From positions 76,441 to 140,440 of the forward strand of contig UBZP01000025.1 of the NCBI GenBank assembly GCA_900469965.1: DNA of 64,000 bases, read 5' to 3'. Under the pieces are notes generated by a model. The model searched no databases. It was given only the letters and a program-made list of their open reading frames with translations, and had not been told where the DNA came from. A program made the translations under genes and the position numbers. This DNA comes from Hyphomicrobiales bacterium (lineage in GTDB: Bacteria > Pseudomonadota > Alphaproteobacteria > Rhizobiales > Rhizobiaceae). Shown one piece after another: positions 5,169 through 61,129 of the stretch (positions are counted from its first letter, which is position 1; each line of letters starts with the position of its first letter).

Positions 5169-5274
5169 TTTCGTCCCGTCTCGTCATGAGAGGCGCGGCC
5201 CGCAGGGACCGCAATGCTACCGGGACGTCTAGCGCACGAAACTTGCGCGAGGGTGGCAGTGCGGAAAAATGGCG

Positions 5275-5541
5275 TCAGAAGCCGGATTCGATCCGGGAGA
5301 AGATGACGTCGCTGAAGATGGAGATCTGCGCGCCGATGAAGGGCGCCGAGATTGCGACCGTGACGAGCACGGCGAGGATTTTCGGAACGAAGGTCAGGGT
5401 GACTTCCTGCACCTGGGTCAGCGCCTGGATGAAGGCGATGACGACGCCGACGACCATGGCCGCCAGAACCGCCGGACCGGCCGCCACGATGACGGTCCAG
5501 ATGGCGGCCTGGGCAATGTCGAGGGCGTCGGCCTCATTCAT
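5275..5541 (-). CDS. fliQ: Flagellar export gate protein FliQ
   Basis: This small membrane protein (88 residues) has two hydrophobic helices, at about 12-36 and 52-76, separated by an IQALTQVQEVTL loop typical of FliQ. It forms part of the FliPQR export gate. It follows flgD by only seven bases. Rhizobial clusters place fliQ here, between flgD and flhA, away from fliP, as seen in this window. Confidence 0.95.
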   Translation of the reverse strand: MNEADALDIAQAAIWTVIVAAGPAVLAAMVVGVVIAFIQALTQVQEVTLTFVPKILAVLVTVAISAPFIGAQISIFSDVIFSRIESGF

Positions 5542-5548
5542 GGGTGGA

Positions 5549-5962
5549 TCACTTCACCTTTACGCCGGGTCCGATGACGAGCTTGTCGCCCGACTCAAGC
5601 GTTGCAACGATACCATCGGTATACAGCGTTACTTCCTTGACGACACCCGAAATCTCGCCGTCTTCGCTGGTGACCGTGCGGCCGATGACGGAATCGGCTT
5701 CCTGCAGCGAGGTGCGCTGCAGCAGGCTTTCCAGGTTGGTGTTCGTCTTCACGGTCTGCTCGACCTGCGAGAAGGTGGCGAGCTGCGCCATCTGCTCGGT
5801 CGCGTCCATGGGCTCCGTCGGGTCCTGGTTCTTCAGCTGTTCGACGAAGAGCTTCAGGAAGCTCTCGTAGTTCAGCGTGGTGCTCTTGACGTCGGCGGAA
5901 GACTCGGTGCCGGAGGCGGTGGGCGTGTAGCCGGTCGCGGCGGCAGAGACGGGCGTTACCAT
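5549..5962 (-). CDS. flgD: Flagellar hook-assembly (hook cap) protein FlgD, short form
   Basis: FlgD is a temporary scaffold that caps the growing hook. The 137-residue product shows the conserved N-terminal core: [20 protein letters not shown] at about residues 32-51, then [11 protein letters not shown]. It is much shorter than the enterobacterial protein of about 230 residues and lacks most of the tudor/FnIII-like C-terminal part. Short forms are usual in rhizobia. It overlaps flbT by seven bases. Confidence 0.93.
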
Positions 5963-10673: not shown

Positions 10674-11345
10674 TCAGCTCCAGTCGATGCAGTAGCCGAG
10701 GAAGCGCTTCGAATCGATCGGATCGAAGCCGAGCTTCTTGCGAAGCTTCTTGCGCAGCTTGCTGATGTGGCTCTCGACCACGTTCTCTTCGACGTCCTCG
10801 TCGAAGATCCCGTAGATCGCGTTGAAGATCTGCGTCTTCGACAGGCGACGGCCGCGGTTTGCGACCAAGTATTCGAGAATGCGGCGCTCGCGCCGCGGCA
10901 GGGGAAACACCGTGCCTTCGATCTCCGGGTCGCGACCGTCGGAGAAGACCCGGATCGGTCCGATGTCGGTGAAGTTGGCGAGCGCCTTCAGCCGCCGGCG
11001 GATCGCCGCCGCGCGGGCCAGGATCTCGCGCGGGTGCACCGGCTTGCGGACGACATCGTCGACACCGCAGTCAAAGAAGGCCAGCGTCGTCTCGAGCGAG
11101 GGGGTGTCGCTGACGGCGATCACCGGCGCCTGCGAGCGATCCCGGATCGCCCGCGGCAGTTCCATCGTCTGCTGGCCCTGGCCGATCAAAAACGCCTCGA
11201 CGGCATCCAGATCGCTGTCTGCGGCCGAGTTGACCCATTCTCCGAATTCCTTCGGATCAAAGCCCGTCGAGGGCACGCCCTCGCGACCAAATAGTGAAGT
11301 GTAACCGTCCTTAACGAGCTCGCGCTCATCAACCACTACGATCAT
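10674..11345 (-). CDS. rem: Motility transcription activator Rem (OmpR-type, atypical receiver)
   Basis: Rem is the rhizobial activator of late flagellar, motor and chemotaxis genes; in Sinorhizobium its gene is activated by VisN/VisR. The 223-residue protein has a receiver-like domain (about 1-115) and an OmpR-type winged helix (about 125-223, with [20 protein letters not shown]). The receiver keeps the lysine-proline pair (K101-P102), but I find no Asp at the expected phosphoacceptor position near residues 50-57. It is therefore probably not phosphorylated in the usual way. A perfect CtrA-type box lies about 100 bases upstream. Confidence 0.93.
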
Positions 11346-17116: not shown

Positions 17117-18103
17117 CTACTGCTGGAACAGCTGCAGGATGTTCTGCGAGTTGGTGTTGGCGATCGAGAGCGACTGGATGGCGAGCTGCTGCTGGGTCTG
17201 CAGCGCCTGCAGTCTGGTCGATTCCTCGTTCATGTCCGCGTCCACCAATCGTCCGACGCCGGTGTCGATCGTGTCGATCAGTGTCGCGACGAAATCCTCC
17301 TGCATGTCGATGCGGCTCTGGATCGAGCCCAGGCTCGAGGCGGCGCTCGTCATGGCCTCGAGCTGGCCGTCGACGAACTGGGTCATGGCGTCGAGGGCGT
17401 CGGCATCGTCGTGCGGCCCGGGCGGGTCTGCGATGTCGAGCTGGAGGGCGACGGTGTCGAGATCGGTGATGTCGAGCGTCACCACGGAGAAGCCGAGCGA
17501 GGTCGTGCCGTTGGACGCGAGCTTGTCGAGGATGCCGAGATTGCCGCCGCTGGTATCGAACAGGACGGTGTCTTCATTGAGCGGATAGTCGACGGTCGTC
17601 ACGCCGACCGTGCCGGAGGCATTGCGGATGAAGGAGGCCACGACTTGCTTTGTGACCGTCACCGGCGTTGGGGGAACGGCACCGTCGCTGATGTCTTCCT
17701 GCAGCCAGTTCTCGCCCGAGAAGGAGGCCGATTCGGAAATGCTCTTCAGCTGTTCCTGCAGCTGGTTGATTTCTTCCTGGATCTTGGTGCGGTCGGTGCC
17801 GACGCCATAGGCGGCGACGAGCTTGGCCTTGATTTCCTGGACGACCTCGATGGCGCTTTCCATGGCCGCATAGGCGGTATCGACCTTGGCGGCGCCGAGG
17901 CCGAGCGCGTCCTGAACGGTGGAGAGCGCGCGGTTGTCCGAGCGCATGGTGGTCGCAATCGACCAGTAGGCGGCGTTGTCGGCGGCGGTTTCCACCCGGA
18001 GACCGGAAGAAACGCGTGCCTGGGTGGTCTCGAGATTGCGATCGATTGCACGAAGGGTTTGCAGCGCCGCCATTGCGGCGGCGTTGGTCAATATGCTGGC
18101 CAT
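17117..18103 (-). CDS. Flagellin, divergent paralogue
   Basis: Flagellin is the filament subunit. The 328-residue protein keeps the conserved N-terminal coiled-coil (LTNAAAMAALQTLRAID and ARVSSGLRVETAADNAAYWS) and C-terminal domain ending SQNILQLFQQ. Its central region is about 60 residues shorter and clearly different from the three other flagellins here. It probably corresponds to one of the secondary flagellins of rhizobia (flaB/C/D); I cannot assign the letter. Two perfect CtrA-type boxes lie about 120-160 bases upstream, unlike its neighbours. Confidence 0.95.
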   Translation of the reverse strand: MASILTNAAAMAALQTLRAIDRNLETTQARVSSGLRVETAADNAAYWSIATTMRSDNRALSTVQDALGLGAAKVDTAYAAMESAIEVVQEIKAKLVAAYGVGTDRTKIQEEINQLQEQLKSISESASFSGENWLQEDISDGAVPPTPVTVTKQVVASFIRNASGTVGVTTVDYPLNEDTVLFDTSGGNLGILDKLASNGTTSLGFSVVTLDITDLDTVALQLDIADPPGPHDDADALDAMTQFVDGQLEAMTSAASSLGSIQSRIDMQEDFVATLIDTIDTGVGRLVDADMNEESTRLQALQTQQQLAIQSLSIANTNSQNILQLFQQ

Positions 18104-18472: not shown

Positions 18473-19651
18473 TTACTGACGGAAGAGCGACAGAATGTTT
18501 TCGGACGAGGTGTTTGCGATCGAGAGCGCCTGGATGCCGAGCTGCTGCTGCGTCTGCAGGGCGCTGAGGCGGGTCGATTCCTCGTTCATGTCCGCATCGA
18601 CGAGGCGGCCGATGCCCGAGTCGATCGAGTCGGTGAGCTTGGAGATGAAGTCCTCCTGCATGCCGATGCGCATGGAGATGGAGCCGAGCGCCGCGGTGGC
18701 GCTGGTGATGGCCTCCAGCTGGGTGTCGACATGGCTGATCAGCAGGTCGATGATGTCCTCGTCCGTCAGCGTGGCGTCGCCGAAGGCGGTCCGCGCGGTG
18801 TCCATGTCGGAGATGTCGAGCTCGTAGACCGAGGTGCCGTCGGCGAAGACAGCGGCGATCGTGGTCAGCGCTGCACCGGTGACGGCGCCGGTCGAGTCGG
18901 TGGCGACCCACTTGTTCTCGTCGGCCTTGACGTAGAAGTTGGTGCCGTCGGTCCACAGACCGTCCGAATTCTCGGAATAGGTGTCGTCAACGGTGGTGGC
19001 GTCCACGGCTGCGTAGTAGCTGCCGTCCACCAGGGCCACGTCGGACTGCAGGGCGTTCTTGTCGATGATGCCCTGGTCGTTGCCGCTGGTGTCGAAGAGG
19101 ACGTTGGCGGAGTCGAGGTCGACGTCGATGGACTGGACCTTGACGTTGCCGGCGGTGTCGCGAAGGAACGAGCCGACGACCTGCTTGCTGACCGTCACCA
19201 GCGTCGGCAGGTTGCCCGCCGTAGCGCTCTCGTCGCTCACGGCTGCCTTCAGCCAGTTCTCGCCGGAGAAGGAGGCGGAGTCGGTGATCGACTTCAGCTG
19301 GTCCTGAAGCTGCTGGATTTCTTCCTGGATCTTGTTGCGGTCGACGCCGGTTTCGCGGGCGGCGACGAGCTTGTTCTTGATTTCGGTGACCACATCGACC
19401 GCGCTTTCCATGGCGGCGTAGGCCGTGTCGACCTTGGCGGCACCGAGACCGAGTGCATCCTGCACTGCGGAGAGCGCGCCGTTGTCGGAGCGCATCGTCG
19501 TTGCGATCGACCAGTAGGCAGCGTTGTCGGAAGCGGTGCCGACGCGGAGGCCGGAGGAGACGCGGGCCTGCGATTCTTCGAGGCTTGCGTCGAGCGAGCG
19601 GAGGGTCTGGAGCGCGGCCATTGCCGCATTGTTCGTCAAGATGCTGGTCAT
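18473..19651 (-). CDS. Flagellin
   Basis: This 392-residue flagellin has the conserved N-terminal domain (ILTNNAAMAALQTLRSLDAS, SGLRVGTASDNAAYWS) and C-terminal domain (MNEESTRLSALQTQQQLGIQ, ending ENILSLFRQ). The central part contains TNFYVKADENKWVATDSTG, shared nearly unchanged with the next two flagellins, so these three are recent duplicates. It has its own leader, upstream TTAAC boxes and terminator. Secretion is by the type III flagellar pathway, so no signal peptide is expected. Confidence 0.96.
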   Translation of the reverse strand: MTSILTNNAAMAALQTLRSLDASLEESQARVSSGLRVGTASDNAAYWSIATTMRSDNGALSAVQDALGLGAAKVDTAYAAMESAVDVVTEIKNKLVAARETGVDRNKIQEEIQQLQDQLKSITDSASFSGENWLKAAVSDESATAGNLPTLVTVSKQVVGSFLRDTAGNVKVQSIDVDLDSANVLFDTSGNDQGIIDKNALQSDVALVDGSYYAAVDATTVDDTYSENSDGLWTDGTNFYVKADENKWVATDSTGAVTGAALTTIAAVFADGTSVYELDISDMDTARTAFGDATLTDEDIIDLLISHVDTQLEAITSATAALGSISMRIGMQEDFISKLTDSIDSGIGRLVDADMNEESTRLSALQTQQQLGIQALSIANTSSENILSLFRQ

Positions 19652-19919: not shown

Positions 19920-21095
19920 TTAACGGAAGAGCGACAGGATGTTTTCCGAAGCGGAGTTGGCGATCGACAGCGCCTGGATGCCGAGCTGCTGCTGCGTCTG
20001 CAGGGCGCTGAGGCGGGTCGATTCCTCGTTCATGTCGGCATCCACCAGGCGGCCGACGCCCGAGTCGATCGAGTCGGTCAGCTTGGAGACGAAGTCTTCC
20101 TGCAGGTCGAGGCGCATGGAGACCGAGCCCATGTCGGCAGCTGCGCTGGTGGCAGCTTCGAGCTGGCGGTCGACGTGGCTGATCAGCAGGTCGATGACGT
20201 CTTCGTCGGTCAGGGTCGTGTCGCCGAGAGCCGTCTTCATCGCATCCATGTCGGAGATGTCGAGTTCGTAGACGGAGGTACCGTCTGCGAAGACAGCGGC
20301 GATCGTGGTGAGCGCTGCGCCGGTGACGGCACCGGTGGAGTCGGTGGCGACCCACTTGTTCTCGTCGGCCTTGACGTAGAAGTTGGTGCCGTCCGACCAC
20401 AGGCCGTTGGCGCCTTCGGCGTAGGTGTCGTCAACGACGGTGGAGTCAACGGCTGCGTAGTAGCTGGTGCCGACCTTGGCGACGTCGGACTGCAGGGCGG
20501 CCTGGTCGAGAATGCCCATGTCGTTGCCGCTGGTGTCGAAGAGGACGTTGGTGGAGTCCAGGTCGACGTCGATGGACTGAACCTTGACGTTGCCGGCGCT
20601 GTCGCGGGTGAACGAACCGACGATCTGCTTGGTCACGGTGTCGAGCGTTGCCAGGTTGCCGGCCGTCGTGGCTTCGGTGCTGACCGCTGCCTTCAGCCAG
20701 TTTTCGCCGGAGAAGGATGCCGAGTCGGCGATCGACTTCAGCTGGCCCTGCAGCTGCGTGATTTCTTCCTGGATCTTGCTGCGGTCGACGCCGGTTTCGC
20801 GGGCGGCGACGAGCTTGTTCTTGATCTCTTCGATAACGTCGATCGAGGATTCGAGACCGGCATAGGCGGTGTCGACCTTGGCGGCGCCGAGACCGAGGGC
20901 GTCCTGGACGGCGGAGAGAGCGCCGTTGTCCGAACGCATGGTCGTTGCGATCGACCAGTAGGCTGCGTTGTCGGCAGCTTCACCAACGCGCAGGCCCGAG
21001 GAGACGCGCGACTGGGTTTCTTCCATGTTGGAGTTGATCGAGCGCAGCGTCTGGAGAGCGGACATGGCTGCGATGTTGGTAAGAATGCTCGTCAT
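19920..21095 (-). CDS. Flagellin
   Basis: This 391-residue flagellin is nearly the same length as the flanking copies and shares long identical stretches with them in both the terminal and central domains (for example TNFYVKADENKWVATDSTG). The N-terminus reads MTSILTNIAAMSALQTLRSI and the C-terminus ends ENILSLFR. It is a monocistronic unit with a conserved upstream block at 21194-21251 and a stem-loop at 19863-19886. Confidence 0.96.
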   Translation of the reverse strand: MTSILTNIAAMSALQTLRSINSNMEETQSRVSSGLRVGEAADNAAYWSIATTMRSDNGALSAVQDALGLGAAKVDTAYAGLESSIDVIEEIKNKLVAARETGVDRSKIQEEITQLQGQLKSIADSASFSGENWLKAAVSTEATTAGNLATLDTVTKQIVGSFTRDSAGNVKVQSIDVDLDSTNVLFDTSGNDMGILDQAALQSDVAKVGTSYYAAVDSTVVDDTYAEGANGLWSDGTNFYVKADENKWVATDSTGAVTGAALTTIAAVFADGTSVYELDISDMDAMKTALGDTTLTDEDVIDLLISHVDRQLEAATSAAADMGSVSMRLDLQEDFVSKLTDSIDSGVGRLVDADMNEESTRLSALQTQQQLGIQALSIANSASENILSLFR

Positions 21096-21495: not shown

Positions 21496-22671
21496 TTAGC
21501 GGAAGAGCGACAGAATGTTCTGCGAGTCGCTGTTGGCGATCGACAGAGCCTGGATGGCCAGCTGCTGCTGCGTCTGCAGGGCGCTGAGGCGGGTCGATTC
21601 CTCGTTCATGTCGGCATCCACCAGGCGGCCTACGCCGCGCTCGATCGAGTCCGAGAGCTTGGAAACGAAGTCTTCCTGCAGGTCGAGGCGCATCGAGACC
21701 GAACCCATGTCGGCAGCTGCGCTGGTAGCAGCTTCGAGCTGGGCGTCGACGTGGCTGATCATCAGGTCGATGGCATCAGCGTCCGTCAGGGTGGCGTCGC
21801 CGAGAGCGGTCTTCAGGGCGTCCATGTCGGAGATGTCGAATTCCGAGACGGAGGTGCCGTCGGCGAAGACAGCGGCGATCGTGGTGAGCGCTGCACCGGT
21901 GACGGCACCGGTGGAGTCGGTGGCGACCCACTTGTTCTCGTCGGCCTTCACGTAGAAGTTCGTGCCGTCCGACCACAGGCCGTTGGCGCCTTCGGAGTAG
22001 GTGTCGTCGACGACGTCGGAGTCAACGGCTGCGTAGTAGCTGTCGCCGACCTTGGCGACATCAGCCTGCAGCGCGTCCTTGTCGAGGATGCCCATCTTGT
22101 TGCCGCTGGTGTCGAACAGGACGTTCGTGGAGTCCAGGTCGACGTCGATGGACTGAACCTTGACGTTGCCGTTGGAGTCGCGGGTGAACGAACCGACGAC
22201 CTGCTTGGTAACCGTCTCGAGCGTGGCCAGGTTGCCGGCCGTCGTGGCTTCCGAGCTGACAGCAGCCTTCAGCCAGTTCTCACCGGAGAAGGAAGCCGAG
22301 TCGGCGATCGACTTCAGCTGGTCCTGCAGCTGGGTGATTTCTTCCTGGATCTTGGACTTGTCGGCCGAAGATTCCTGGGCGGTCACCAGCTTGTTCTTGA
22401 TCTCCTGCATGACGTCGATCGAAGATTCGAGACCGGCATAAGCGGTGTCGACCTTGGCGGCGCCGAGGCCCATTGCTTCGCTGACGGCAGAGAGAGCGCC
22501 GTTGTCCGAACGCATGGTGGTTGCGATCGACCAGTAGGCAGCGTTGTCGGAAGCCGTGCCGACGCGCAGGCCGGTGGAGACGCGACCCTGCGTGGTTTCC
22601 AGGTTGCTGGAGATGTTACGCAGCGTCTGGAGAGCAGACATTGCGCTAGCGTTGGTGAGAATGCTTGCCAT
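21496..22671 (-). CDS. Flagellin (first of the array, nearest the glycosyltransferase)
   Basis: This 391-residue flagellin has the conserved terminal domains (ILTNASAMSALQTLRNIS at the start, SQNILSLFR at the end) and the same central TNFYVKADENKWVATDSTG segment as its two neighbours. Double terminators and an AT-rich upstream region suggest strong expression. By position, next to the divergent non-flagellin gene, it is the likely equivalent of flaA, the principal flagellin of rhizobia. I leave the symbol blank because the lettering cannot be confirmed without alignment. Confidence 0.96.
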   Translation of the reverse strand: MASILTNASAMSALQTLRNISSNLETTQGRVSTGLRVGTASDNAAYWSIATTMRSDNGALSAVSEAMGLGAAKVDTAYAGLESSIDVMQEIKNKLVTAQESSADKSKIQEEITQLQDQLKSIADSASFSGENWLKAAVSSEATTAGNLATLETVTKQVVGSFTRDSNGNVKVQSIDVDLDSTNVLFDTSGNKMGILDKDALQADVAKVGDSYYAAVDSDVVDDTYSEGANGLWSDGTNFYVKADENKWVATDSTGAVTGAALTTIAAVFADGTSVSEFDISDMDALKTALGDATLTDADAIDLMISHVDAQLEAATSAAADMGSVSMRLDLQEDFVSKLSDSIERGVGRLVDADMNEESTRLSALQTQQQLAIQALSIANSDSQNILSLFR

Positions 22672-23081
22672 ATTCGTTTGTCCCTTTGAACGAAATACTT
22701 TGTGGGGACATGCCGGGCTCCCTTAATCCTACCGGCGACGACAGATCGACTTCATGCCACTTGGTTTCATTATTTGGGTTGAGAAACCAAACCTGCCGTG
22801 TCGGGAAGGAATATCCCGTCCAAAACTTTCGCGTTGATTAATTTCGAGGTTTTCTCGCCGTACCCCCAAAATCTATAGTTAACGGCCGGCAAGTTTATAT
22901 GGTTAAATTTGTAAGTCTAAATCCGGCTACTATTAACCACGGCCTTCGCTCGCCCCCGCGTGCGCCCGCGCAAGGACGGATACACGCAAGCTTCGCGCGG
23001 TAGCGTGCGGCAACCACAGTGCCGTCGGGACCCTGTTCCGCGTCGCCGCCTGCCGACCGCCTTTCGAACGGAGCGCCCATC
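22672..23081. promoter_or_regulatory. Divergent promoter region between a flagellin and the GT41 gene
   Basis: These 410 bases are AT-rich compared with their surroundings. They carry GTTAAC at 22878-22883 and ATGGTTAA at 22899-22906 (TTAACCAT on the flagellin coding strand), plus TTAACC near 22933 facing the glycosyltransferase. The flagellin leader nearest 22672-22742 resembles those of the next two flagellins. No gene is seen here. Confidence 0.5.
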
Positions 23082-24989
23082 TTGTCGAGCAACATTTCAT
23101 TCGCCACCGCATCCCGGGAATTCCAGAAGGGGCAGTACGGACAGGCGCTCGCCACCCTGAACAGGCTTCTCGAGATCCAGCCGGACGGCAGGACCTATGC
23201 GCTCCTCGCCAGGACCCTGCACAAGGTCGACATGAAGGCCGAGGCCGCCACGGTCTTCGATCTCGCCGCCCGCCACGAGGACGCCCATGCCACGGAGTAC
23301 CGGCGCGAGGCCATGAAGCTCCATTTCGAATGCGGCAACGACGACGAGGCGCTGCTGGTGGGCAAGCGGCTCCTCGAAAAGGCGCCGGCGGACCCGGACG
23401 TCGCCTACGTGCTGGCATCGATCTTCCTCAAGCGCGGCAAGCGCGACATCATCGAGGGGCTGCGCAAACCGCTGATCAACAGTTCCGACCCGCGGCACCT
23501 CGTTCTCGCGGCAAAACTTCTCACCGACAGCGCCGACGACGAGAACAACCTGCTGACGACGGAGAAGGCGCTGCAACGGGCGCCGCGCAACAACGTCGTC
23601 CGCAGCGCCTATCTGGCGTTCGCCCGCGAGATCAACGACTACGCCATCATCGAACGGCATCAGCCGATCATCGAGGCGGCGATCGCCAAGGGCGACACCG
23701 CCTTCATGGAGGCCGAGGCCGCCTGGCTCAACCTTGTCTGGTGCGGCGACGAGCGGATCAACACGATGGCGGTGGCCAATACGCCGACCGTCGCGCCCGA
23801 GATGACGGCACGGCGTCGCCGGATGCCGGTCCATCAGGCGGAGAAGGTGCGGATCGGCTACCTGTCCTCCGACTTCTGGGAGGATCACGCCACCATGAAG
23901 CTCCTGCGCCGCATCCTGGAGCAGCACGACCGGAGCCGGTTCGATGTCCATCTCTTCTGCTATACCGCGCCGAAGCACCTCCTGGACGGCCATGACCGAT
24001 CGGGCTGGGGCCAGATCACACGCGTCGCCGACATGTCCGACCCGGAAGCGGCAGCGACGATCCGCAACAGCAAGATCGACATCCTCGTCGACCTCAAGGG
24101 ACACACGAAGGATGGGCGCCCCGGGATCCTGAACTACCTGGCAGCGCCGATCCAGGTCGCCTGGCTCGGATTTCCCGGCTCCACGGTCAAGACCGACCTC
24201 GACTACGTCATCGGCGACCGCTTTGTGCTGCCGGAAAGCTCGAAGCCGTTCTACCACGAGAAATTCTGCAGGCTGCCGGATACCTATCAGCCGAACGACC
24301 CGGTCAACCGTCCGCCGCTGCAGCCGCTTTCCCGCAAGGAGCTGAACCTGCCGGAGGACCGGTTCCTGTTTGCCTCGTTCAACCACAACCGCAAGATCTC
24401 CCCGCGGGCGATCGAGCTGTGGGCCCGGATCCTCAAGCGCGCACCCGACAGCTGCCTGCTGCTGCTCGCGGTGTCGGAGCGGGCGCGGGAGAACATCCTG
24501 AGCAAGTTCCGGTCGGAGGGGATCGCTGCGGACCGGATCATCTTCACCCCGAAGGTGAACTACGACCGCCACCTCAATCGCGTGGGCGCGGCGGATATCG
24601 GTCTCGACACCTTTCCGTATAACGGTCACACCACCACCTCCGAACAGCTCTGGGGCGGGTTGCCGGTCATCAGCCTCAAGGGAACCAATTTCGCCTCGCG
24701 CGTCAGCGAGAGCCTGCTTCACGCGATGGGCCTGCCGGAACTCGTGACGGAGGACCAGGACGGCTACGTCGAACTCGCCGTCGCCTGCTACGAGAACCCG
24801 CAGATGGTCGCGGCGTACAGGGCCAAGCTGGAGCAGAACCGCCTGATCGCACCGCTGTTCGACGCCGAGCGCTTCCGCGCGCATCTGGAGGCGGCCTACG
24901 AGACCATGCTCGAACGCGCCAAGGCCGGCCTGGAGCCGGACCACTTCGACGTGCCCGCCCTGCCAGTCCGCACGACGCCGTTCCAATAG
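23082..24989 (+). CDS. TPR plus GT41 (OGT-type) glycosyltransferase, candidate flagellin glycosyltransferase
   Basis: The N-terminal part (about residues 1-230) is built of helical TPR-like repeats, starting with EFQKGQYGQALATLNRLLEI. The C-terminal part (about 255-600) matches the O-GlcNAc-transferase fold of family GT41, with VRIGYLSSDFWEDHA, DLKGHTKDGRPGI and the donor-binding NGHTTTSEQLWGGLPV (about residues 514-529). Caulobacter FlmG, which glycosylates flagellin, has this same layout. Lying next to four flagellin genes, this enzyme probably modifies flagellin on Ser/Thr in the cytoplasm. A TTG start at 23082 with a GGAG site is preferred over a GTG at 23019 lacking one. Confidence 0.82.
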   Translation: MSSNISFATASREFQKGQYGQALATLNRLLEIQPDGRTYALLARTLHKVDMKAEAATVFDLAARHEDAHATEYRREAMKLHFECGNDDEALLVGKRLLEKAPADPDVAYVLASIFLKRGKRDIIEGLRKPLINSSDPRHLVLAAKLLTDSADDENNLLTTEKALQRAPRNNVVRSAYLAFAREINDYAIIERHQPIIEAAIAKGDTAFMEAEAAWLNLVWCGDERINTMAVANTPTVAPEMTARRRRMPVHQAEKVRIGYLSSDFWEDHATMKLLRRILEQHDRSRFDVHLFCYTAPKHLLDGHDRSGWGQITRVADMSDPEAAATIRNSKIDILVDLKGHTKDGRPGILNYLAAPIQVAWLGFPGSTVKTDLDYVIGDRFVLPESSKPFYHEKFCRLPDTYQPNDPVNRPPLQPLSRKELNLPEDRFLFASFNHNRKISPRAIELWARILKRAPDSCLLLLAVSERARENILSKFRSEGIAADRIIFTPKVNYDRHLNRVGAADIGLDTFPYNGHTTTSEQLWGGLPVISLKGTNFASRVSESLLHAMGLPELVTEDQDGYVELAVACYENPQMVAAYRAKLEQNRLIAPLFDAERFRAHLEAAYETMLERAKAGLEPDHFDVPALPVRTTPFQ

Positions 24990-25010
24990 AAAGGCGGCCG
25001 AACTCCAGGC

Positions 25011-25030
25011 GGCGCCCCTCCCGGGGCGCT
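25011..25030. terminator. GC-rich hairpin between convergent genes
   Basis: An eight-base-pair GC-rich stem (arms 25011-25018 and 25023-25030) lies between the glycosyltransferase and fliP, which converge. It lacks a U-run, so a terminator role for either strand is only suggested by position. Confidence 0.35.
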
Positions 25031-25149
25031 GCCCGGCAAGGTCAGTCAGGCGTCATTGGAAAAAAGAAAGTATGCAATGGCATGCCCGCCGGCGGTGCCG
25101 ACTGGGCCATCTGATGAGCGTGTAGCAAAGGCGGGAGCCAGCGGCGGCG

Positions 25150-25890
25150 TTACTGGAACGAGCGCACCAGGCTGCCGACGAGCAGGTTCCAGCCGTCGAT
25201 CAGGACGAAGAAGAGGATCTTGAACGGCAGCGAGATCGACGTCGGCGGCAGCATCATCATGCCCATCGCCATGGTGATCGTCGCGACGATCAGGTCGATG
25301 ACGAGGAAGGGCAGCACGACGAGGAAGCCGATCTCGAAGCCGCGCCGGATCTCCGAGATCATGAACGCCGGTACGACGGCGCGCAAATCGACCTTGCCGT
25401 CGACCAGCACGGTCTGGCCGCGCTCCTGCGCCAGCGTGATGAACAGCTGCATGTCCTCGTCGCGGGTATTGGCGGTCATGAACTCGCGGAACGGCTCGGC
25501 CACCCGCCGCGCGGCCTCGGCCTCGTCGATCTGGTTGGCGATCAGCGGCTGGATGCCGGTCTCCCAGGCGCGGTCGAACGTCGGCGCCATGACGTAGAAT
25601 GTCATGAACAGGGCAAGGCTGACCAGGATCATGTTGGAGGGGGTCGTGGCGAGCCCCATGCCGGAGCGCAGGATCGCAAAGGCGATGACGAAGCGCGGGA
25701 AGCTCGTCACCATGATCAGGATGCCCGGCGCGACCGAAAGAACGGTCAGCAGCCCGAAGGTGCGGATGATCCAGGAGGCGACCGACCCGTCGATCGGGGT
25801 GTTGAGCAATTGCGCCGGCGTCTGCTGGGCAAGCGCCACGCTGGTCATCGCCATCATGGCAACGAAAGTCGTCGTGAAAAATCGAATCAT
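25150..25890 (-). CDS. fliP: Flagellar export gate protein FliP
   Basis: FliP forms the core of the export-gate pore with FliQ and FliR. The 246-residue product has a cleavable signal peptide (about 1-22) and four membrane segments. Family signatures are PGILIMVTSFPRFVIAFAIL (about 55-74) and the C-terminal LPFLVIDLIVATITMAMGMM. It is the last gene of the flgB-fliP operon and overlaps fliL by four bases. Confidence 0.96.
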   Translation of the reverse strand: MIRFFTTTFVAMMAMTSVALAQQTPAQLLNTPIDGSVASWIIRTFGLLTVLSVAPGILIMVTSFPRFVIAFAILRSGMGLATTPSNMILVSLALFMTFYVMAPTFDRAWETGIQPLIANQIDEAEAARRVAEPFREFMTANTRDEDMQLFITLAQERGQTVLVDGKVDLRAVVPAFMISEIRRGFEIGFLVVLPFLVIDLIVATITMAMGMMMLPPTSISLPFKILFFVLIDGWNLLVGSLVRSFQ

Positions 25891-26390
25891 TCGATCACAA
25901 AGGTCCGGAACATGATGTTGGTTACGCGTCCTTCGGACCGCAGGTCAACCCGCTCCTTCAGGTCGTCCCGGAGATATTGGAAGCCGCGCGGGCCCTGGAT
26001 CTGCTGCAGCGACACCGTGCGCATGTAGGCCATGATGTCCTGGTGGATCGCTTCGGCGATCACGGGGTCCGGGACCCCCTTGAACGCGAGCGCGATCTCC
26101 ATGCGGACGAGGTTGTCGGCCGGATAGGCGAGATTGCTGGTAAAGGGCTCGAGCGCGACGATTCCGTTCGCCTCGGTGGCCAGGCGCGGAATCCCGCCCT
26201 CCTCGGCCGCGCCCGCTTCCGCCCCGGGTTCGGCGGCCGCCGTCTCGGGCTCGGCCGGCGGCGGGGCGAGCATGTTGCCGACGAACCAGCCGCCGCCGCC
26301 GGCCGCGACGCTGAGGCCGGCGACGATCGCGATGGTCAATACGAGCGAGGGCTTCTTCTTGCCTTCGTCGGCCTGGTCCTGGTTCGCCAT
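25887..26390 (-). CDS. fliL: Basal-body-associated protein FliL
   Basis: FliL is an inner-membrane protein that surrounds and stabilises the stator. The 167-residue protein has a short cytoplasmic N-terminus and one membrane helix (about 16-36, ending in a Gly-rich GGGGWFVGNML). An Ala/Glu/Pro linker leads to a periplasmic SPFH-like domain ending YLRDDLKERVDLRSEG and MFRTFVIE. It overlaps fliP and starts 36 bases after flgH. Confidence 0.94.
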   Translation of the reverse strand: MANQDQADEGKKKPSLVLTIAIVAGLSVAAGGGGWFVGNMLAPPPAEPETAAAEPGAEAGAAEEGGIPRLATEANGIVALEPFTSNLAYPADNLVRMEIALAFKGVPDPVIAEAIHQDIMAYMRTVSLQQIQGPRGFQYLRDDLKERVDLRSEGRVTNIMFRTFVIE

Positions 26391-26426
26391 GTCCGCGTTC
26401 CGTCTGTTGGTATTGAGTGGGGCCGA

Positions 26427-27137
26427 TCAGATCGGCGAGAACAGGTCGACGAGCTGTTGGCCCCATGGCGGCTGCTGCACCTCCGTCAGGCGCCCGCGGC
26501 CGCCATAGGAGATGCGGGCTTCGGCGATCTTGTCGTAGGAGATGCGGTTGTCGGAATCGACATCCTGCGGCCGCACGATACCGGCGACGTTGAGGATGCG
26601 CAGTTCGTGGTTCACACGCACTTCCTGCGAGCCGCTGATCAGGAGGTTGCCGTTTTCCAGGACGCCGGTGACGACGGCGGCGACGAGCAGGTTCAGCCTT
26701 TCCGAACGCTCCGTCTTGCCGTCACCCTTGGTGCTGGTGGACGAGCCGTAGGTCAGGTCGCCTTCGGTGCTGAGCGAGAAGTTGTCGCCCTCGCCGTCTA
26801 TGGAGAAGTCCATGCCGCTCTTGTTCTCGCGGCTGCGATCGGTCTTGTTGTCGAAGGTCGCCTGGTCGTTCAGGCGGATCGTCACGGTCAGGAGGTCGCC
26901 GACATTGATCGCGCGGGAATCCTTGAACAGGTTCGACTGGCTGTCGCTCCAGGTCGAGTAGCCCGCCATCCTGGTGTGCGCCTGCTTCGGATACAGCGCC
27001 ATCTGCGGGGTCTGCGCGTATTGCAGGCCGCTGCCGATCGGGCTCATGGACGGCGCCTGGCCGATTTCCCTCAGCGCCTGGTTGGCGCAGCCGGACAGGA
27101 GCGAGGTTGCCATCATGGCGAGGGCTAGCTTCTTCAT
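26427..27137 (-). CDS. flgH: Flagellar L-ring lipoprotein FlgH
   Basis: FlgH forms the outer-membrane L-ring. From the ATG at 27137 the protein has 236 residues with a lipoprotein signal peptide and lipobox LLSGC (Cys17). The mature part shows GDLLTVTIRLND and NLLISGSQEVRVNHE, which are typical of FlgH. Its start overlaps the end of motE by four bases. A longer reading to 27704 would cover motE in another frame and was rejected. Confidence 0.96.
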   Translation of the reverse strand: MKKLALAMMATSLLSGCANQALREIGQAPSMSPIGSGLQYAQTPQMALYPKQAHTRMAGYSTWSDSQSNLFKDSRAINVGDLLTVTIRLNDQATFDNKTDRSRENKSGMDFSIDGEGDNFSLSTEGDLTYGSSTSTKGDGKTERSERLNLLVAAVVTGVLENGNLLISGSQEVRVNHELRILNVAGIVRPQDVDSDNRISYDKIAEARISYGGRGRLTEVQQPPWGQQLVDLFSPI

Positions 27138-27676
27138 GACGGATCCTTCGAGGTATTCGGGTCGGATGCCGCAGCGATGATGCTGGCGAGCAAGGCCGCC
27201 TTTTCGGCCTCCATCTCGCTGAGGATCAGGCCGGACATGCGCGGATTGAGTTTCATGACGATCGCGGAGGCGACCTCGGGATTGATCTTCTCGAGCTGGG
27301 CGGCGGCGGCATCCGCCGGCATCTTCTTGTAGATCTCGATGAGCCCGGCTTCGGCGACCTTGAGGAAATCGTTGCGGCGCTTCAGCCAGTCCTCGTATTC
27401 GGCGCGGCGCTCCTCGAGGGTGGCGATCCGGCTGTCCACGTCCTGCTGCAGCTTTTCCAGCTCCTGCTTCTGGAGCAGGTATCGCTGGTCGCGCGCCTTG
27501 TCGGAGATGTTGGTGCAGAATTCGCGGATCTCGTCGGCGGTGGCCGTGCTGGTGACGATGACCGGGCGCTCTTCGGCGAGCGCGCCGGGAATGGCGAGCA
27601 TCAGTGCGCCGGCTGCCGGCAGCAACAGGCTGCGCAGGCTCCGGATCAGGGATGGCTGTTCGATCCTGTTCGTCAT
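27134..27676 (-). CDS. motE: Periplasmic motility protein MotE
   Basis: MotE is a rhizobial periplasmic protein required for proper folding and stability of MotC. The 180-residue protein has a signal peptide (about 1-34, cleaved near ALA). A coiled-coil (about 60-110) is followed by an MgtE-N-like helical domain with the repeated pattern ADAAAAQLEKINPEVASAIV. It overlaps flgI and flgH by four bases each. Confidence 0.92.
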   Translation of the reverse strand: MTNRIEQPSLIRSLRSLLLPAAGALMLAIPGALAEERPVIVTSTATADEIREFCTNISDKARDQRYLLQKQELEKLQQDVDSRIATLEERRAEYEDWLKRRNDFLKVAEAGLIEIYKKMPADAAAAQLEKINPEVASAIVMKLNPRMSGLILSEMEAEKAALLASIIAAASDPNTSKDPS

Positions 27677-28788
27677 TGCAGCACCAATTCTGCCTGGAGC
27701 GCACCGGCGGACTTGATCCCCTGCAGGATCGAGATGATCCCGTCAGGTTTCACGCCGATACTGTTGAGCCCGGAGACCAGCGTCTTGAGGTTCGAGCCGT
27801 TGAGGATGGCGACGGTGCCTCCGTCCTGCTGGGCGACGATGTCGGTGTTCGGCTCCACCGCGGTGACGCCGTCGGAGAAGGGCGCCGGCTGGACGACCTG
27901 CGGCATCTCGGTGACCTGCACCGTCAGCGTGCCGTAGCTCACGGCGACCTGCGAGATGCGGACGTCCTGGCCGATGACGATGGTGCCCGTGCGCTCGTTG
28001 ATCACGACGCGCGCGGGCACGTCGGTCTCGATCACCAGGTTCTCGACCTCCGCCATCAGGCGGGCGAGATCGGCGCGCTTCGGCTTCTGGACATAGACCG
28101 ACTGCGAGTCACGCGCATCGGCGATGCGGCCGCCGTAGCGGGTCGTGGCATAGCGGTTGATCGCGTCGGCCATGCCGACGGCAGTGGAGAAGTCGGGATT
28201 GCGCAGCTGCAACACCAGGTCGGAGCCGTCCTTGAAACGGGCCGGCAGCTCGCGCTCGATGATCGCGCCGTTCGGCACGCGGCCCGCGGTGGTCACGCCC
28301 TGCTGAAGGGTGGCCGCCTCGCCTTGCGCGTTGAAGCCGGTGACCACGACCGAGCCTTGCGCCACGGCATAGATCTGGCCGTCTGCGCCGGTCAGCGAGG
28401 TCATGACGAGCGAGCCGCCGCGCAGCGAGGTGGCATCGCCGAGCGAGCCGACCGTCACGTCGATGCGGCTGCCCGGGCTCGCGAACGGCGGCAGCGTCGC
28501 CGTGACGAGCACCGCGGCGACGTTCCGCGCGCGCGAACGCTCGCCCTCGGTATTGATGCCGAGGTTCTGCAGCATCGATTGCAGCGCCTGCTCGGTGAAC
28601 GGCGAGGAACGCAGGCTGTCGCCCGTGCCCTGCAGGCCGACGACGAGGCCGTAGCCGATCAGCTGGTTGTCGCGTCCCGCCTGCAGCGACGCCACATCCT
28701 TGATGCGCGCGGCCGAATGCGCCGGCGCAACGGAAAGCGCGAGCCCCACCAGGGCGCCCACGAGGCGGGAGAGAAACGCTCTCGTCAT
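27673..28788 (-). CDS. flgI: Flagellar P-ring protein FlgI
   Basis: FlgI forms the periplasmic P-ring around the rod. The 371-residue protein has a signal peptide (about 1-26) and the diagnostic N-terminus RIKDVASLQAGRDNQLIGYG, then LVVGLQGTGD. The C-terminus includes ILQGIKSAGALQAELVLQ. Length is normal. It is coupled to flgA upstream and motE downstream by four-base overlaps. Confidence 0.97.
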   Translation of the reverse strand: MTRAFLSRLVGALVGLALSVAPAHSAARIKDVASLQAGRDNQLIGYGLVVGLQGTGDSLRSSPFTEQALQSMLQNLGINTEGERSRARNVAAVLVTATLPPFASPGSRIDVTVGSLGDATSLRGGSLVMTSLTGADGQIYAVAQGSVVVTGFNAQGEAATLQQGVTTAGRVPNGAIIERELPARFKDGSDLVLQLRNPDFSTAVGMADAINRYATTRYGGRIADARDSQSVYVQKPKRADLARLMAEVENLVIETDVPARVVINERTGTIVIGQDVRISQVAVSYGTLTVQVTEMPQVVQPAPFSDGVTAVEPNTDIVAQQDGGTVAILNGSNLKTLVSGLNSIGVKPDGIISILQGIKSAGALQAELVLQ

Positions 28789-29303
28789 TTTGCCACCACA
28801 TGCACTGTCCGGTCCTCCATGACGGTGCCGGAGACGATCACGCCGGAATCCAGGTTGCGGACCTTGATGAGATCGCCGACCGCGGCGTCGTCCAGCGGCG
28901 ATCCGGAGGCCGTGATCAGCAGCGGGCCGTTGCGGAAGACGAGCCGGACCGTCTTGCCGCGCGAGACGGCGAAGGGCTCGCGCAGAGAAGAGACGAGGAT
29001 GATGCGCCCGGCCACGAGCGTCCGCGTGGTCACCTTGCCGTCGATCGCATCGATCCGCTCCGCATAGCCGGGAGCGATGTTCGGATTGGTGACCGCGACT
29101 TCCTCCAGCGCGCTCGCATCGAGCTGTTCGCCGGGATAGATCGTGCGCTTGGGAATGACGGCGAACCGTCCCTCTGCCAGCGCCGGCGCGGCGGCCGGCA
29201 CGGTCAGCGTTGCGGCCATGGCGACGACGGCGAGAGCCAGCAGCGCCCCGGCCCGGCCGGCGGCGCGCTGTCGTTCAGGGTTCTTTCGCAGGCGAAACAT
29301 CAT
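28785..29303 (-). CDS. flgA: P-ring assembly chaperone FlgA
   Basis: FlgA is the periplasmic chaperone for FlgI. The 172-residue protein has a long basic N-terminus with a signal peptide (about 1-43) and a compact SAF-type domain (IPKRTIYPGEQLDASALEEV at about 50-69, then a C-terminal VKVRNLDSGVIVSGTV-like end). It overlaps flgI by four bases and lies 20 bases after flgG. It is shorter than enterobacterial FlgA, as usual in rhizobia. Confidence 0.93.
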   Translation of the reverse strand: MMFRLRKNPERQRAAGRAGALLALAVVAMAATLTVPAAAPALAEGRFAVIPKRTIYPGEQLDASALEEVAVTNPNIAPGYAERIDAIDGKVTTRTLVAGRIILVSSLREPFAVSRGKTVRLVFRNGPLLITASGSPLDDAAVGDLIKVRNLDSGVIVSGTVMEDRTVHVVAK

Positions 29304-29323
29304 GTCTCCCTCATCTCACGCGG

Positions 29324-30106
29324 CTAGCGGAGGTTCTGGCTGACGACCCGGGCCATCTCGTCTGCCGCCTGGATGATCTTGGAGTTCATCTCATAGGCGC
29401 GCTGGGCCGAGATCAGGTCGGTGATTTCCTTGACCGGGTCGACGTTCGAGGCTTCCAGGTAGTTCTGCTGGATGTAGCCGACGCCGGCTTCGTCCGGCAC
29501 GCCGACCGTCGCGGGGCCGGAGGCCTCCGTCTCGCGGAACAGGTTCTCGCCGAGCGGCTCCAGGCCGGCCTCGTTGACGAAGGTGGCGAGCGTCAGCTGG
29601 CCGAGCTCCTGCTGTTCGCCGTCGACGGTGGCGAAGACCTGGCCGGAGCGGTTGACGGTGATCTCGGTGGCTTCCTGCGGCACCGTGATGCCCGGCGTCA
29701 CCGAGTAGCCGTCGAGGGTCACGAGCTGGCCGTCGGCATTGGTGTTGAACGCGCCGGAGCGGGTGTAGAGGATCGTGCCGTCCGGCGCCTCGATCTGGAA
29801 CCAGCCGCGGCCGACCAGCGCCATGTCGAAGGCGTTGCCGGTCTGGGTGAGCTGGCCCTGCAGGTGCAGGTTTCGCACCGCCGCAGTCTTGACGCCGAGG
29901 CCGATGATCGCGCCTTCCGGCACGATCGCCTGGTTGCCGCGGTTCGGCACGCCCTGGGCCCGTTCGGTCTGGTAGAGCAGGTCCGAGAACTCGGCGCGCG
30001 CCCGCTTGTAGCCGGTGGTATTGATGTTGGCGATGTTGTTCGCGATGACCTCGAGATTGGTCTGCTGCGCGTTCATGCCGGTGGCGGCGATGGCAAGAGC
30101 TTTCAT
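29324..30106 (-). CDS. flgG: Distal rod protein FlgG
   Basis: FlgG builds the distal rod. The 260-residue product starts [20 protein letters not shown] and has the rod signature [19 protein letters not shown]. It ends [20 protein letters not shown] followed by the conserved [10 protein letters not shown] helix. It lies 11 bases after fliE. Confidence 0.97.
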
Positions 30107-30117
30107 GGCACGTTCCT

Positions 30118-30462
30118 TCAGATCTGCATCCGGGCGACTTCGAGATAGGCGGTGACCACCTTGTCGCGGATCGCGATCGCGGTCTGGAGCGTCTGCTCGG
30201 CGGTCATGACCGCATCAACCACTTCGCGTGTGTTCGCCTTGCCCTGGATGCTCTCGAAGGACTTCGTCTCGCTCGCCCGCAGGCTGGTGACGGTGTCGGT
30301 CGCCATGTCCCCCAGGATCTGGGAGAAGCTCATGGGCTGGGCAGCATTGGCAGCCGCGGAAGGCTGCATGATGCTGGAGGCGGAGACGCTGTTCTCCGTC
30401 AGGGTGCCGGAGAGGGGCGAGGAAGAGGAGAGCGTGCTTACGCTCGTCAGCGATTCAATCAT
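30118..30462 (-). CDS. fliE: Hook-basal body adapter FliE
   Basis: FliE connects the MS-ring and export gate to the rod. The 114-residue protein has a Ser-rich N-terminus and a helical C-terminal half with [20 protein letters not shown], the FliE signature. It overlaps flgC by four bases. Confidence 0.94.
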
Positions 30463-30878
30463 TGCGATGCCCTCAGGAGATCGATGGTCGCACTGATGAG
30501 GTCGCGCGACTGGCGGATGCTTTGCAGATTGGCCTCATAGGACCGGTTGGCTTCCCGCATATCGGCCATCTCGACCAGCACGTTGACGTTCGGGATCTTG
30601 ACCATGCCCTTCTCGTCGGCGGCGGGGTTGCCGGGGTCGAACTCGGCGGAGAACTCGCTTTCGTCCTCGGCCAGCCGGTCGACTTCCACCAGCGAGGCGC
30701 CGACGCTGCGATCGAGCTCGGCGACGAAGGTGATGGTCTTGCGCCGATAGGGATCGGCGCCGGGCACGTCGCCGGTCGAACGGGCGTTGGCCAGGTTCTC
30801 CGAGACGATGCGAATACGGGTGGACTGCGCCTCCAGGCCGGAGGCCGCAACCTTCATCGATGCAATAAGCGGATCCAT
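30459..30878 (-). CDS. flgC: Proximal rod protein FlgC
   Basis: FlgC is a proximal rod subunit. From the ATG at 30878 it has 139 residues, with the N-terminal [20 protein letters not shown] and [11 protein letters not shown] motifs and a C-terminal [20 protein letters not shown] helix. It begins two bases after the flgB stop. Longer upstream readings fall inside flgB and were discarded. Confidence 0.97.
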
Positions 30879-30880
30879 TT

Positions 30881-31261
30881 TCAAGTCCTGACAGTCATCA
30901 GCATCATGCGATGAAACGCTTTGACCAGGCCGGCGCTGAGCTCGTACTCCCGCTTGACCTGGCCCTGCTTCATCAGTTCTTCGGCGAGCCCGACCGAGTT
31001 GCCGGAGATCTGGACGCCGACGTCCTCGTTGGCTTCGACATCGGTGACCTCGCCGGTCAGCGAGCCGTCCGTGAAGTGCATCGGATTGGTCGCTGCCATG
31101 CGGATACCGGTGTTTTCCAGCACCGACTGGAACGGCGTCACGTCCTTGGCCTTGTAGCCGGGCGTATTGGCGTTTGCGATGTTGCCGGCAACCACCGACT
31201 GCCGCACGGAGAGCCACTCTGCCTGCTTGGATGCCAGCTCGAAGAATTGGATTGGTTGCAT
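30881..31261 (-). CDS. flgB: Proximal rod protein FlgB
   Basis: FlgB is the first proximal rod subunit and the first gene of the flgB-C-fliE-flgG-A-I-motE-flgH-fliL-P operon. The ATG at 31261 (126 residues, starting [20 protein letters not shown]) is preceded by a GGAG ribosome site. A GTG at 31276 is the alternative. The [15 protein letters not shown] motif is diagnostic. The promoter should lie in 31262-31379, after the terminator of the preceding operon. Confidence 0.96.
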
Positions 31262-40356: not shown

Positions 40357-41100
40357 TCAGCGGATGTAGCCCAGGCGTATCGCCTTGGCGATCGCCTGGA
40401 CGCGGTTGACCGCGTCCAGCTTCGTCGTCGCCGTGCCCAGATAGGCATTGACCGTATGCACCGAGAGCCCGAGCTTTTCGGCGATCGACTCGCTGATGCA
40501 GCCGTCGCCCGCCATCTGCAGGCAGGCGATCTCCCGCTCGTTGAGCGCTTCCGCCGGCTGCAGCCGCTTCTCGTCCGCCGCCAGCAGGTCGACCATGATG
40601 TGGCCGGCGCGCATGTGCATGTCGAGCACGAGATCGGTGTCGACCCTGAGGAAGTCGCCGACCAGGACGACGAAGCCGTTGCCGCTCGAGCCCAGCCGGA
40701 CAGGAAAGGCAATGCCGGCACAGGGCAGCCGGCTTGCCGGAAGGCGCTGCACGAAGGCCGCAAGCTCGTCGGAGACGAAGGCGTTCGCATCCTCGCCTTC
40801 CCAGACGACGGGAAGCATGGACGTATCGAGGTGGGCCATGAGCGCCTCGCCATGCGCCTCCACCAGCCCGCGCGCCATAGTCTCGGTTTCCCCCGCCCAA
40901 CTGCTGAGCGTGCAGGTGAGCCGGCGTGTCGACGGCAGCCCCCGGCCGAGAACGCGGAACACGGCGAAGTTCCTCGCCCCCACGACCTTCTGCATATGCT
41001 GGAGGGCTGCCACCACATCCGTCGTGCGCTTGGGACGCGAAAGCTTGGCGATCCTGATCTCGGGACCTTCACCGCCCGGCTGGGAGAAGGGATGCACCAT
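40357..41100 (-). CDS. visR: LuxR-type motility master regulator VisR
   Basis: VisR acts with VisN, probably as a heterodimer, as the global activator of rhizobial flagellar and chemotaxis genes, upstream of rem. The 247-residue protein has an N-terminal ligand-binding-like domain (about 1-165) and a LuxR helix-turn-helix (about 180-245: EALNEREIACLQMAGDGCIS, LGLSVHTVNAYLGTA). The ATG at 41100 has a strong GAGGTGA site. The 11-base space to the visN stop indicates one transcript. Confidence 0.92.
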   Translation of the reverse strand: MVHPFSQPGGEGPEIRIAKLSRPKRTTDVVAALQHMQKVVGARNFAVFRVLGRGLPSTRRLTCTLSSWAGETETMARGLVEAHGEALMAHLDTSMLPVVWEGEDANAFVSDELAAFVQRLPASRLPCAGIAFPVRLGSSGNGFVVLVGDFLRVDTDLVLDMHMRAGHIMVDLLAADEKRLQPAEALNEREIACLQMAGDGCISESIAEKLGLSVHTVNAYLGTATTKLDAVNRVQAIAKAIRLGYIR

Positions 41101-41110
41101 CTCTCTCACC

Positions 41111-41884
41111 TCAGACGAGATTGTTGCGCACGGCCCAGGCAATCGCCTCGGAACGGGTCTTGGTCGCCGTCTTGCGCATCACGCTGGTGATGTAGTTGTT
41201 GATCGTGTTCCGGGAGATGCCGAGGATCACCGCGATCTCGTCGCTGGTCTTGCCCTCGGCGATCCAGTAGAGGCACTCGACCTCGCGATCCGTCAGCTCG
41301 GATTCACGATCCTGGCGGGCGGCCGGCTTGCAGCAGACGCTCGCGAAGTAGCCGGTCAGCAGCCCCACGTCACGCAGGTTGCTCTGCGACAGGATGTAGT
41401 GCTCCGGAAACAGCAGCATCAGCGTCATGCGCACGCGCCCGACGTTGAAGGTGATCGTGCAGTACTCCCGGCTCACGCCCGACGGCACAGCAATGTCGTC
41501 GCAGAACTGCGAGAATACCGGCTGCATCAGGCTGTTGGAGCGGTCGAGATCGCTCATGCGGCAGTTGGCGCCGTCGAGTGCGGCGGCGAGACTGCGGACC
41601 ATGTCGAACGGCCAGTCAGAGGCGACCACAAAGCCGATGTCGGCGCTGAACGACATATCGTGGCGGACCAGCAGGTAGTGGGACGCGCTGACATACTGGG
41701 TCAGCGCCCTCAACCCTGCCGTGAGTCCGGCGCGGTCCGCACTGCGCCCCAACTGATCGACCAGTTGCTCACGCGCACTCTTACGCTCACAGCTCACCGC
41801 AGAGAATCCATAGGATTCCCGGAGCGATACATCCGCTCTCATCGTTTCCATAGTAGCCCCCGTTGCCGAACTCGGCTGGATCAT
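41111..41884 (-). CDS. visN: LuxR-type motility master regulator VisN
   Basis: VisN is the partner of VisR. The 257-residue protein has a sensor-like domain (about 40-180) and a C-terminal LuxR helix-turn-helix (ESELTDREVECLYWIAEGKT, ILGISRNTINNYIT). The start at 41884 is preceded by an AAGGGGGG site; an internal ATG at 41851 is the alternative. A perfect CtrA-type box lies about 210-225 bases upstream. Confidence 0.92.
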   Translation of the reverse strand: MIQPSSATGATMETMRADVSLRESYGFSAVSCERKSAREQLVDQLGRSADRAGLTAGLRALTQYVSASHYLLVRHDMSFSADIGFVVASDWPFDMVRSLAAALDGANCRMSDLDRSNSLMQPVFSQFCDDIAVPSGVSREYCTITFNVGRVRMTLMLLFPEHYILSQSNLRDVGLLTGYFASVCCKPAARQDRESELTDREVECLYWIAEGKTSDEIAVILGISRNTINNYITSVMRKTATKTRSEAIAWAVRNNLV

Positions 41885-55135: not shown

Positions 55136-55145
55136 GGTGCTCGCT

Positions 55146-55460: not shown

Positions 55461-55470
55461 CGGTCCCTCC

Positions 55471-58948: not shown

Positions 58949-59040
58949 CCGCGATGTGGTGGTGTCCTGCAACAAGGGTTCGTCCGTCGGATTTGATGGT
59001 TCTCGGCGACGAACGTCCTTGTCGCCGCGCGTTCAAGATC

Positions 59041-59180: not shown

Positions 59181-59236
59181 AATGCACTTGCTTCGTAGCG
59201 GCCCGGCCAATCGGCAGCCGGGCCGCCCGCCGCAGA

Positions 59237-60229: not shown

Positions 60230-60273
60230 GTCCTAGTCCTCCCTGACTGGTTCCTTCCCCTCCCCCGCCGGCC

Positions 60274-61086: not shown

Positions 61087-61129
61087 GGCTCCTCCCAACT
61101 GCTCGCATGCTTCCATCACGATCGCGCAA

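Follow-up and report, generated by a model that had tools for sequence, protein, structure and literature searches.

A TPR-GT41 protein encoded beside a flagellin gene array in Rhizobiaceae is a probable flagellin O-glycosyltransferase

A TPR-GT41 gene transcribed against the flagellar cluster

We analysed a 64,000-nucleotide stretch of a Hyphomicrobiales genome (family Rhizobiaceae, contig UBZP01000025.1; hereafter the window) and describe here a single forward-strand gene in it, at positions 23082 to 24989, which encodes a protein combining tetratricopeptide repeats (TPR) with a glycosyltransferase domain of family GT41. As an initial annotation had reported, the gene diverges from four flagellin genes; these lie on the reverse strand, and the gap to the first of them is 410 bases (Table 1). 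Among open reading frames (ORFs) picked by codon composition between positions 126 and 35052, the only ones on the forward strand are this gene and two short, atypical frames. The transferase gene thus stands between the flagellin array and fliP in an orientation opposite to that of the flagellar cluster.

The mechanically called ORF opens further upstream, at GTG 23019, and read from there has the codon composition of the adjoining genes (GC content 0.89 at third and 0.43 at second codon positions). Comparison of the start region across 14 rows (the window and 13 orthologues) placed a start codon at the position aligned with TTG 23082 in every row (11 TTG, 3 ATG), giving 635 codons up to the stop ending at 24989. 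A GGAG that is likely the ribosome-binding site lies just upstream in all 11 TTG rows and is not found in the three ATG rows (G023, L057, L087; here and below, G, L, P and f mark genomes, loci, proteins and families). Ratios of nonsynonymous to synonymous substitution (dN/dS, NG86) were low, at 0.06, 0.08, 0.10, 0.08 and 0.05 in five close orthologue pairs and 0.25 between the window and G004, and the protein is therefore under purifying selection. The gene is real and belongs to the GT41 family; its product had no match in PHROGs.

Table 1. Features of the flagellin and TPR-GT41 locus, with window positions.
Feature	Position	Strand	Basis or remark
Short, atypical frame	5269-5577	+	codon-composition ORF selection
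Flagellin 4, 328 aa; proposed substrate	17117..18103	-	Flagellin_N + Flagellin_C
Flagellin 3, 392 aa; proposed substrate	18473..19651	-	Flagellin_N + Flagellin_C
Flagellin 2, 391 aa; proposed substrate	19920..21095	-	Flagellin_N + Flagellin_C
Flagellin 1, nearest, divergent, 391 aa; proposed substrate	21496..22671	-	Flagellin_N + Flagellin_C
Divergent intergenic region, first flagellin to transferase start, 410 bases	22672..23081	.	
GGAG, likely ribosome-binding site of TTG start	23070..23073	+	in 11/14 rows compared
TPR-GT41 protein, 635 aa, proposed flagellin O-glycosyltransferase, TTG start	23082..24989	+	ORF, Pfam, start alignment, dN/dS, model
N-terminal TPR-like helical repeats, residues 1-202, proposed flagellin-binding part	23082..23687	+	TPR_19/TPR_14; 12 helices in model
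GT41 catalytic domain, about residues 255-622	23844..24947	+	H269, K438, H497, GHTTT 515-519 conserved; E521 at human OGT D925 site
fliP; directly beside flagellin array in three congeners without the transferase gene	25150..25890	-	
Short, atypical frame	30462-30914	+	codon-composition ORF selection

TPR-like helices joined to a GT41 catalytic domain

The initial annotation had proposed a TPR domain fused to a glycosyltransferase of the O-GlcNAc transferase (OGT) type that bears the GT41 donor-binding motif, and the domain analysis bears this out. Pfam model Glyco_transf_41 (PF13844) matched with an E value of 5.6e-65 and 220.1 bits (cut-off 25), TPR_19 (27.2, cut-off 25) and TPR_14 (25.0, cut-off 23.5) both passed narrowly, and the motif GHTTT is present; in the orthologues L057 and L062 no TPR model rose above its Pfam cut-off. 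This protein is the sole GT41 member in the window genome (G000). An AlphaFold model places helical hairpins ahead of the GT41 domain and has a two-lobed GT-B fold resembling bacterial and human OGT, such that TPR and GT-B parts are found in one protein, predicted to be soluble.

At the active site, GHTTT falls on His920-Thr922 of human OGT, the His-Thr-Thr oxyanion-hole segment, and both H516-T518 and K438 (the catalytic lysine, K842, of human OGT) are invariant in 30 of 30 sequences. The residue of the N-acetyl pocket that is Cys917 in human OGT is Tyr513 here, the same as in XcOGT. The protein differs from human OGT at Tyr841, replaced by Arg437, and at Asp925, replaced by Glu521 (codon 24642-24644); the roles of human OGT residues H558, H901, Y841 and D925 are presumed here. 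Position 521 is Glu in 17 of 17 flagellin-linked rows, and among 17 sister paralogues it is Asp in 15 and Glu in two, so Glu521 may serve to mark the flagellin-linked clade. We know of no flagellin linkage for XcOGT (XCC0866) or Thermobaculum terrenum OGT. With these two enzymes (PMC4683255) the window protein has its fold in common over most of the chain, the catalytic lysine and Thr-Thr segment being kept.

The gene keeps its place beside flagellin genes

In a first sample of 61 genomes, the protein was matched in 17, the window genome included. Within the window genus the gene occurs in four of seven genomes (the window and three of six congeners), in the order flagellin array, GT41 gene, fliP, while the congeners G001, G002 and G006 have no transferase gene there and show a gap of 343-361 bases, counted between match ends, from array to fliP; the genus thus offers a natural contrast of carriers and non-carriers. 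Among named genomes we collected 50 loci, two of which (L094 and L103) stem from one record. Flagellins adjoin the gene at 42, four of these lying at contig ends where only part of one flagellin is visible (L074, L080, L082, L092), and fliP adjoins it as well at 40, mostly of Rhizobium; two Agrobacterium-type loci (L057 of A. cavarae and L087) have flagellins adjacent and fliP not. No flagellin was found in the stretch examined around the other eight (L091, L094, L096, L101-L105). Because most of the Rhizobium genomes are close kin, the 42 linked loci are far from 42 independent cases. Strain R. johnstonii/leguminosarum 3841 (G064) is among the carriers of the flagellin-linked gene, its orthologue adjoining flaA at about 764316-766220 of NC_008380.1.

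The patchy distribution within the genus might suggest a passenger gene unrelated to the flagellum, a reading that we regard as highly improbable given that the Rhizobium loci share site and orientation with the window genus and that dN/dS stays at 0.05-0.10 in the five close pairs. In a plasmid collection, an S. meliloti record (H2) matched window positions 22265-30000, its matching stretch falling short of the query by about 2.2 kb, a difference that we read as the missing transferase gene; among the 32 records of that collection matching the protein at 1e-60, none was from Sinorhizobium or Shinella. Locus L042 (G015:C5:3000-22500) holds three tandem GT41 paralogues, one frame there having an internal TGA, and no flagellin in the stretch.

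A FlmG-like plan with a different catalytic half

The initial annotation likened the protein to Caulobacter FlmG, which in C. crescentus (CCNA_01524; 596 aa) is described as having a flagellin-binding TPR N-terminus and a GT-B C-terminus, as requiring pseudaminic acid, as acting on several flagellin paralogues and as binding flagellin through its TPR part in two-hybrid tests (PMC7591256). Of the claimed shared architecture, the TPR-first plan within one protein (soluble, as predicted here) and the similar length hold, whereas the catalytic half does not.

FlmG-type proteins were sought by way of the marker HfaA, which led to three genomes of family f73, thence to flbT and to the gene beside it. 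Placing f73 in Caulobacteraceae rests on HfaA (NF037934) and the flbT neighbour, the HfaA match of G139 being under cut-off and families f29, f30 and f117 matching too; by its title, NF037934 is the HfaA model. The flbT-adjacent gene was assigned as FlmG-type on its size and on the citation of the flaF-flbT-flbA/flaG cluster as earlier flmG work (PMC7591256), and the glycosyltransferase nature of its C-terminal half on the description of FlmG in the same article. The comparison of catalytic domains concerns FlmG-type proteins of related genomes and not C. crescentus FlmG itself.

These genes encode divergent TPR proteins, P0002 (G139) of 616 aa and P0003 (G357) of 613 aa, and G297 has, within a 641-aa open frame, a match to P0002 at 65% identity. 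P0002 and P0003 gave many Pfam TPR matches and, in their C-terminal halves, nothing over cut-off, GT41 included; nor are the three f73 genomes among the 105 of 290 genomes with PF13844. BLASTP of the window protein against them revealed no similarity (best E 0.92 and 0.45), and profile-profile alignment with hhalign matched window residues 6-175 to the TPR part only. A P0002 search of 12 genomes found near full-length matches in two f73 genomes and, in the ten others, the window genome among them, matches confined to the TPR part (residues 104-319), leaving the FlmG-type C-terminal half with no counterpart in the window genome.

Because the FlmG-type C-terminal half is not GT41, does not align and is absent from the window genome, the window protein is likely a functional analogue of FlmG with a different transferase. 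There is only the slimmest chance that it is instead a true FlmG orthologue that glycosylates flagellin with CMP-linked pseudaminic or legionaminic acid. The shared TPR plus GT-B plan, the lengths of 635 and 596 aa and the flagellar neighbourhoods of both (PMC7591256) would fit that idea, and C. vibrioides does match PF13844 with some gene, a point that counts against the analogue interpretation; set against these are the different C-terminal domain in three Caulobacteraceae-like genomes, the absence of that domain from the window genome, and the lack of NeuB, the synthase for FlmG's pseudaminic acid donor, in both the window genome and 3841. On the domain difference and missing NeuB we rejected FlmG orthology.

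A probable donor other than nonulosonic acid

NeuB (PF03102) was not found anywhere in the 5.34-Mb assembly of the window genome, the genome-wide search that the initial annotation had suggested, and no nonulosonic-acid gene occurs among the window genes scanned (part of the window ORFs), in keeping with that annotation. A survey of relatives (16 genomes plus those of 33 of the 50 named loci) found NeuB in 17 of 49; among the 31 with the flagellin-linked gene, 14 have it and 17 do not, and the flagellin-linked enzyme is therefore independent of nonulosonic acids. Congeners carrying the gene are likewise mixed (NeuB in G004, absent in G003 and G005), and NeuB was not found in 3841. Since the window genome has neither the FlmG-type catalytic half nor NeuB, a nonulosonic-acid donor is very unlikely, and a common nucleotide sugar, of the kind that the initial annotation had put forward as possible, gains support. 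GT41 donors are usually UDP-sugars, although SPY, of the same family, uses GDP-fucose; UDP-GlcNAc is a plausible donor here, with GlcNAc as the default guess.

PF01973, which we take to be the Maf domain, is absent from 11 of 11 genomes searched, the window genome included, with control matches only in archaea. Maf transferases also O-glycosylate flagellin Ser/Thr, as proposed here, but belong to another family and use nonulosonic acids (PMC11339370).

GT41 genes at flagellin loci across Alphaproteobacteria

A class sample of 40 GT41 loci from 38 genomes, taken from the top of an E-value-ranked list and not at random, included seven with flagellin, FlaF or FlbT genes (L118, L121, L122, L127, L130, L133, L134), three of which (L118, L122, L133) belong to one family, f120. 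NeuB was present in 22 of the 38 genomes, absent in the three f120 genomes (95-97% complete) and present in the other four flagellin-adjacent ones.

On a tree built from 96 GT41 domains, six changes account for the label flagellin-adjacent, at least five of them forced by starred branches, as against 25 for shuffled labels; these changes may be gains or losses. The tree is a quick one without bootstrap, with 29 of 93 inner branches under 80. For its input, identical C-terminal 200-residue ends were entered once (153 to 131), 30 Rhizobium-group locus ids were dropped as near-copies, three short or partial proteins were skipped and three further rows were lost for length (99 to 96). The 17 flagellin-linked proteins of Rhizobiaceae group together (support 85, not starred) within a starred set of 18 that adds L009, which is located elsewhere, and isolated flagellin linkage appears at L014, inside the flagellin array of G007, and at L016 (G055).

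It is to our minds an evenly balanced question whether a TPR flagellin-catcher came by convergence to be joined to transferase domains that are not related to one another (GT41 in Rhizobiaceae, non-GT41 in Caulobacter), with GT41 recruited to flagellin loci several times in Alphaproteobacteria to give a class of cytoplasmic flagellin O-glycosylation independent of nonulosonic acids.

Several of these loci have features of their own. Those of f120 (in G187, G264 and G327) carry a separate GT41 clade between flagellin and divergent flbT-flaF genes and look like another flagellin glycosylation locus free of nonulosonic acids. At L121, L127, L130 and L134, the GT41 proteins encoded beside flagellin genes are long (828-1071 aa if read from the earliest start available) and fall together with L141 and L145 to one side of a starred branch. 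Relatives of P0002 spanning at least part of its C-terminal half share stretches with GT41 genes in L128, L130, L137 and L138, so that both transferase types lie side by side; the one in L130 (14847-16637) is 26% identical to P0002 over residues 61-595, with flagellins in the same stretch.

Proposed role in flagellin glycosylation

Flagellins of R. leguminosarum 3841 and VF39SM were positive with a glycoprotein stain in 2010, and FlaA and FlaB migrate at about 35 rather than 31 kDa; no glycopeptide was detected by tandem mass spectrometry, whose coverage was 18-46%, and NXS/T sites were considered by the authors (PMC2936354). In the accessible text of that article 'transferase' occurs once and 'TPR' never, and no enzyme for flagellin glycosylation is named. 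Filaments of Agrobacterium sp. H13-3 have been called glycosylated on unpublished data (PMC8310070). Our literature search, within the accessible portions of its sources, found no paper naming a rhizobial flagellin-linked GT41 gene, nor one naming the 3841 gene by its tag RL0717 (deduced from flaA being RL0718). In Enterobacteriaceae, GT41 (COG3914) genes of flagellin glycosylation islands were predicted in 2016 to add GlcNAc derivatives to flagellin (PMC4875605). They too adjoin flagellin genes, as in the window and at the 42 named loci, but nearly all also have methyltransferase domains, unlike the stand-alone TPR-GT41 gene; 'TPR' and 'tetratricopeptide' do not occur in the main text of that article.

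We consider it probable that the protein is a soluble, modular flagellin O-glycosyltransferase, in which a TPR superhelix serves a GT41 domain transferring a common sugar from a UDP-sugar; flagellin O-glycosylation, as first annotated, is also the most likely role here, with substrate, donor, linkage and order of events being what we infer. The N-terminal superhelix would bind freshly synthesised flagellins while they are still cytoplasmic, and the C-terminal domain would then attach a sugar (GlcNAc most likely, or else another common hexose) to Ser/Thr residues in the central, surface-exposed region of the four flagellins, ahead of their export by the flagellar secretion system. Flagellins of genomes with the gene showed no significant enrichment in Thr plus Ser (p 0.25) or in Thr alone (p 0.16).

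Two other activities were weighed. The enzyme might act on another flagellar or cytoplasmic protein (hook, hook-associated, regulator or chaperone), its adjacency to flagellin reflecting co-expression only: lying among flagellar genes does not point to flagellin in particular, other genomes have close paralogues at other places, and the flagellin O-GlcNAc transferase of Listeria has a further role in gene regulation, according to a title cited in PMC2936354. This is unlikely, as the flagellin array stays adjacent where fliP does not (L036, L057, L087), flagellin adjacency recurs in several GT41 clades, and it is the flagellins of 3841 that stain (PMC2936354). Very unlikely is an N-glucosyltransferase (NGT/HMW1C-like) acting on flagellin NX(S/T) sites, for which speak an NCBIfam NGT match of 40.8 bits against a cut-off of 1000 and the attention drawn to flagellin NXS/T signals in 2010 (PMC2936354).

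As a probable flagellin O-glycosyltransferase, the linked GT41 protein is the best candidate for the enzyme that glycosylates flagella in the window organism, a relative of root bacteria, and in many Rhizobium species. Glycoprotein-staining flagellins, on record since 2010, can now be set beside one gene at one conserved site in the same sequenced strain, 3841, where nonulosonic acids are made unlikely as the sugar and where the question can be addressed by a single deletion. The enzyme may also be a tool for adding common sugars to chosen proteins.

Other genes in the window

Elsewhere in the window, a reverse-strand chemoreceptor gene with a protoglobin domain (51549-53234), probably an oxygen sensor, lies near chemotaxis genes. 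Those chemotaxis genes adjoin a set for sugar uptake and breakdown at 53774-63381 (FGGY kinase, ABC transporter, periplasmic binding protein, DeoR regulator, aldolase/dehydrogenase), with no sign of a connection to flagellin modification. On the reverse strand, a LuxR-type regulator pair (40357-41884) and a regulator with a Trans_reg_C domain (10674-11345) are, by position, presumably VisNR and Rem, respectively.
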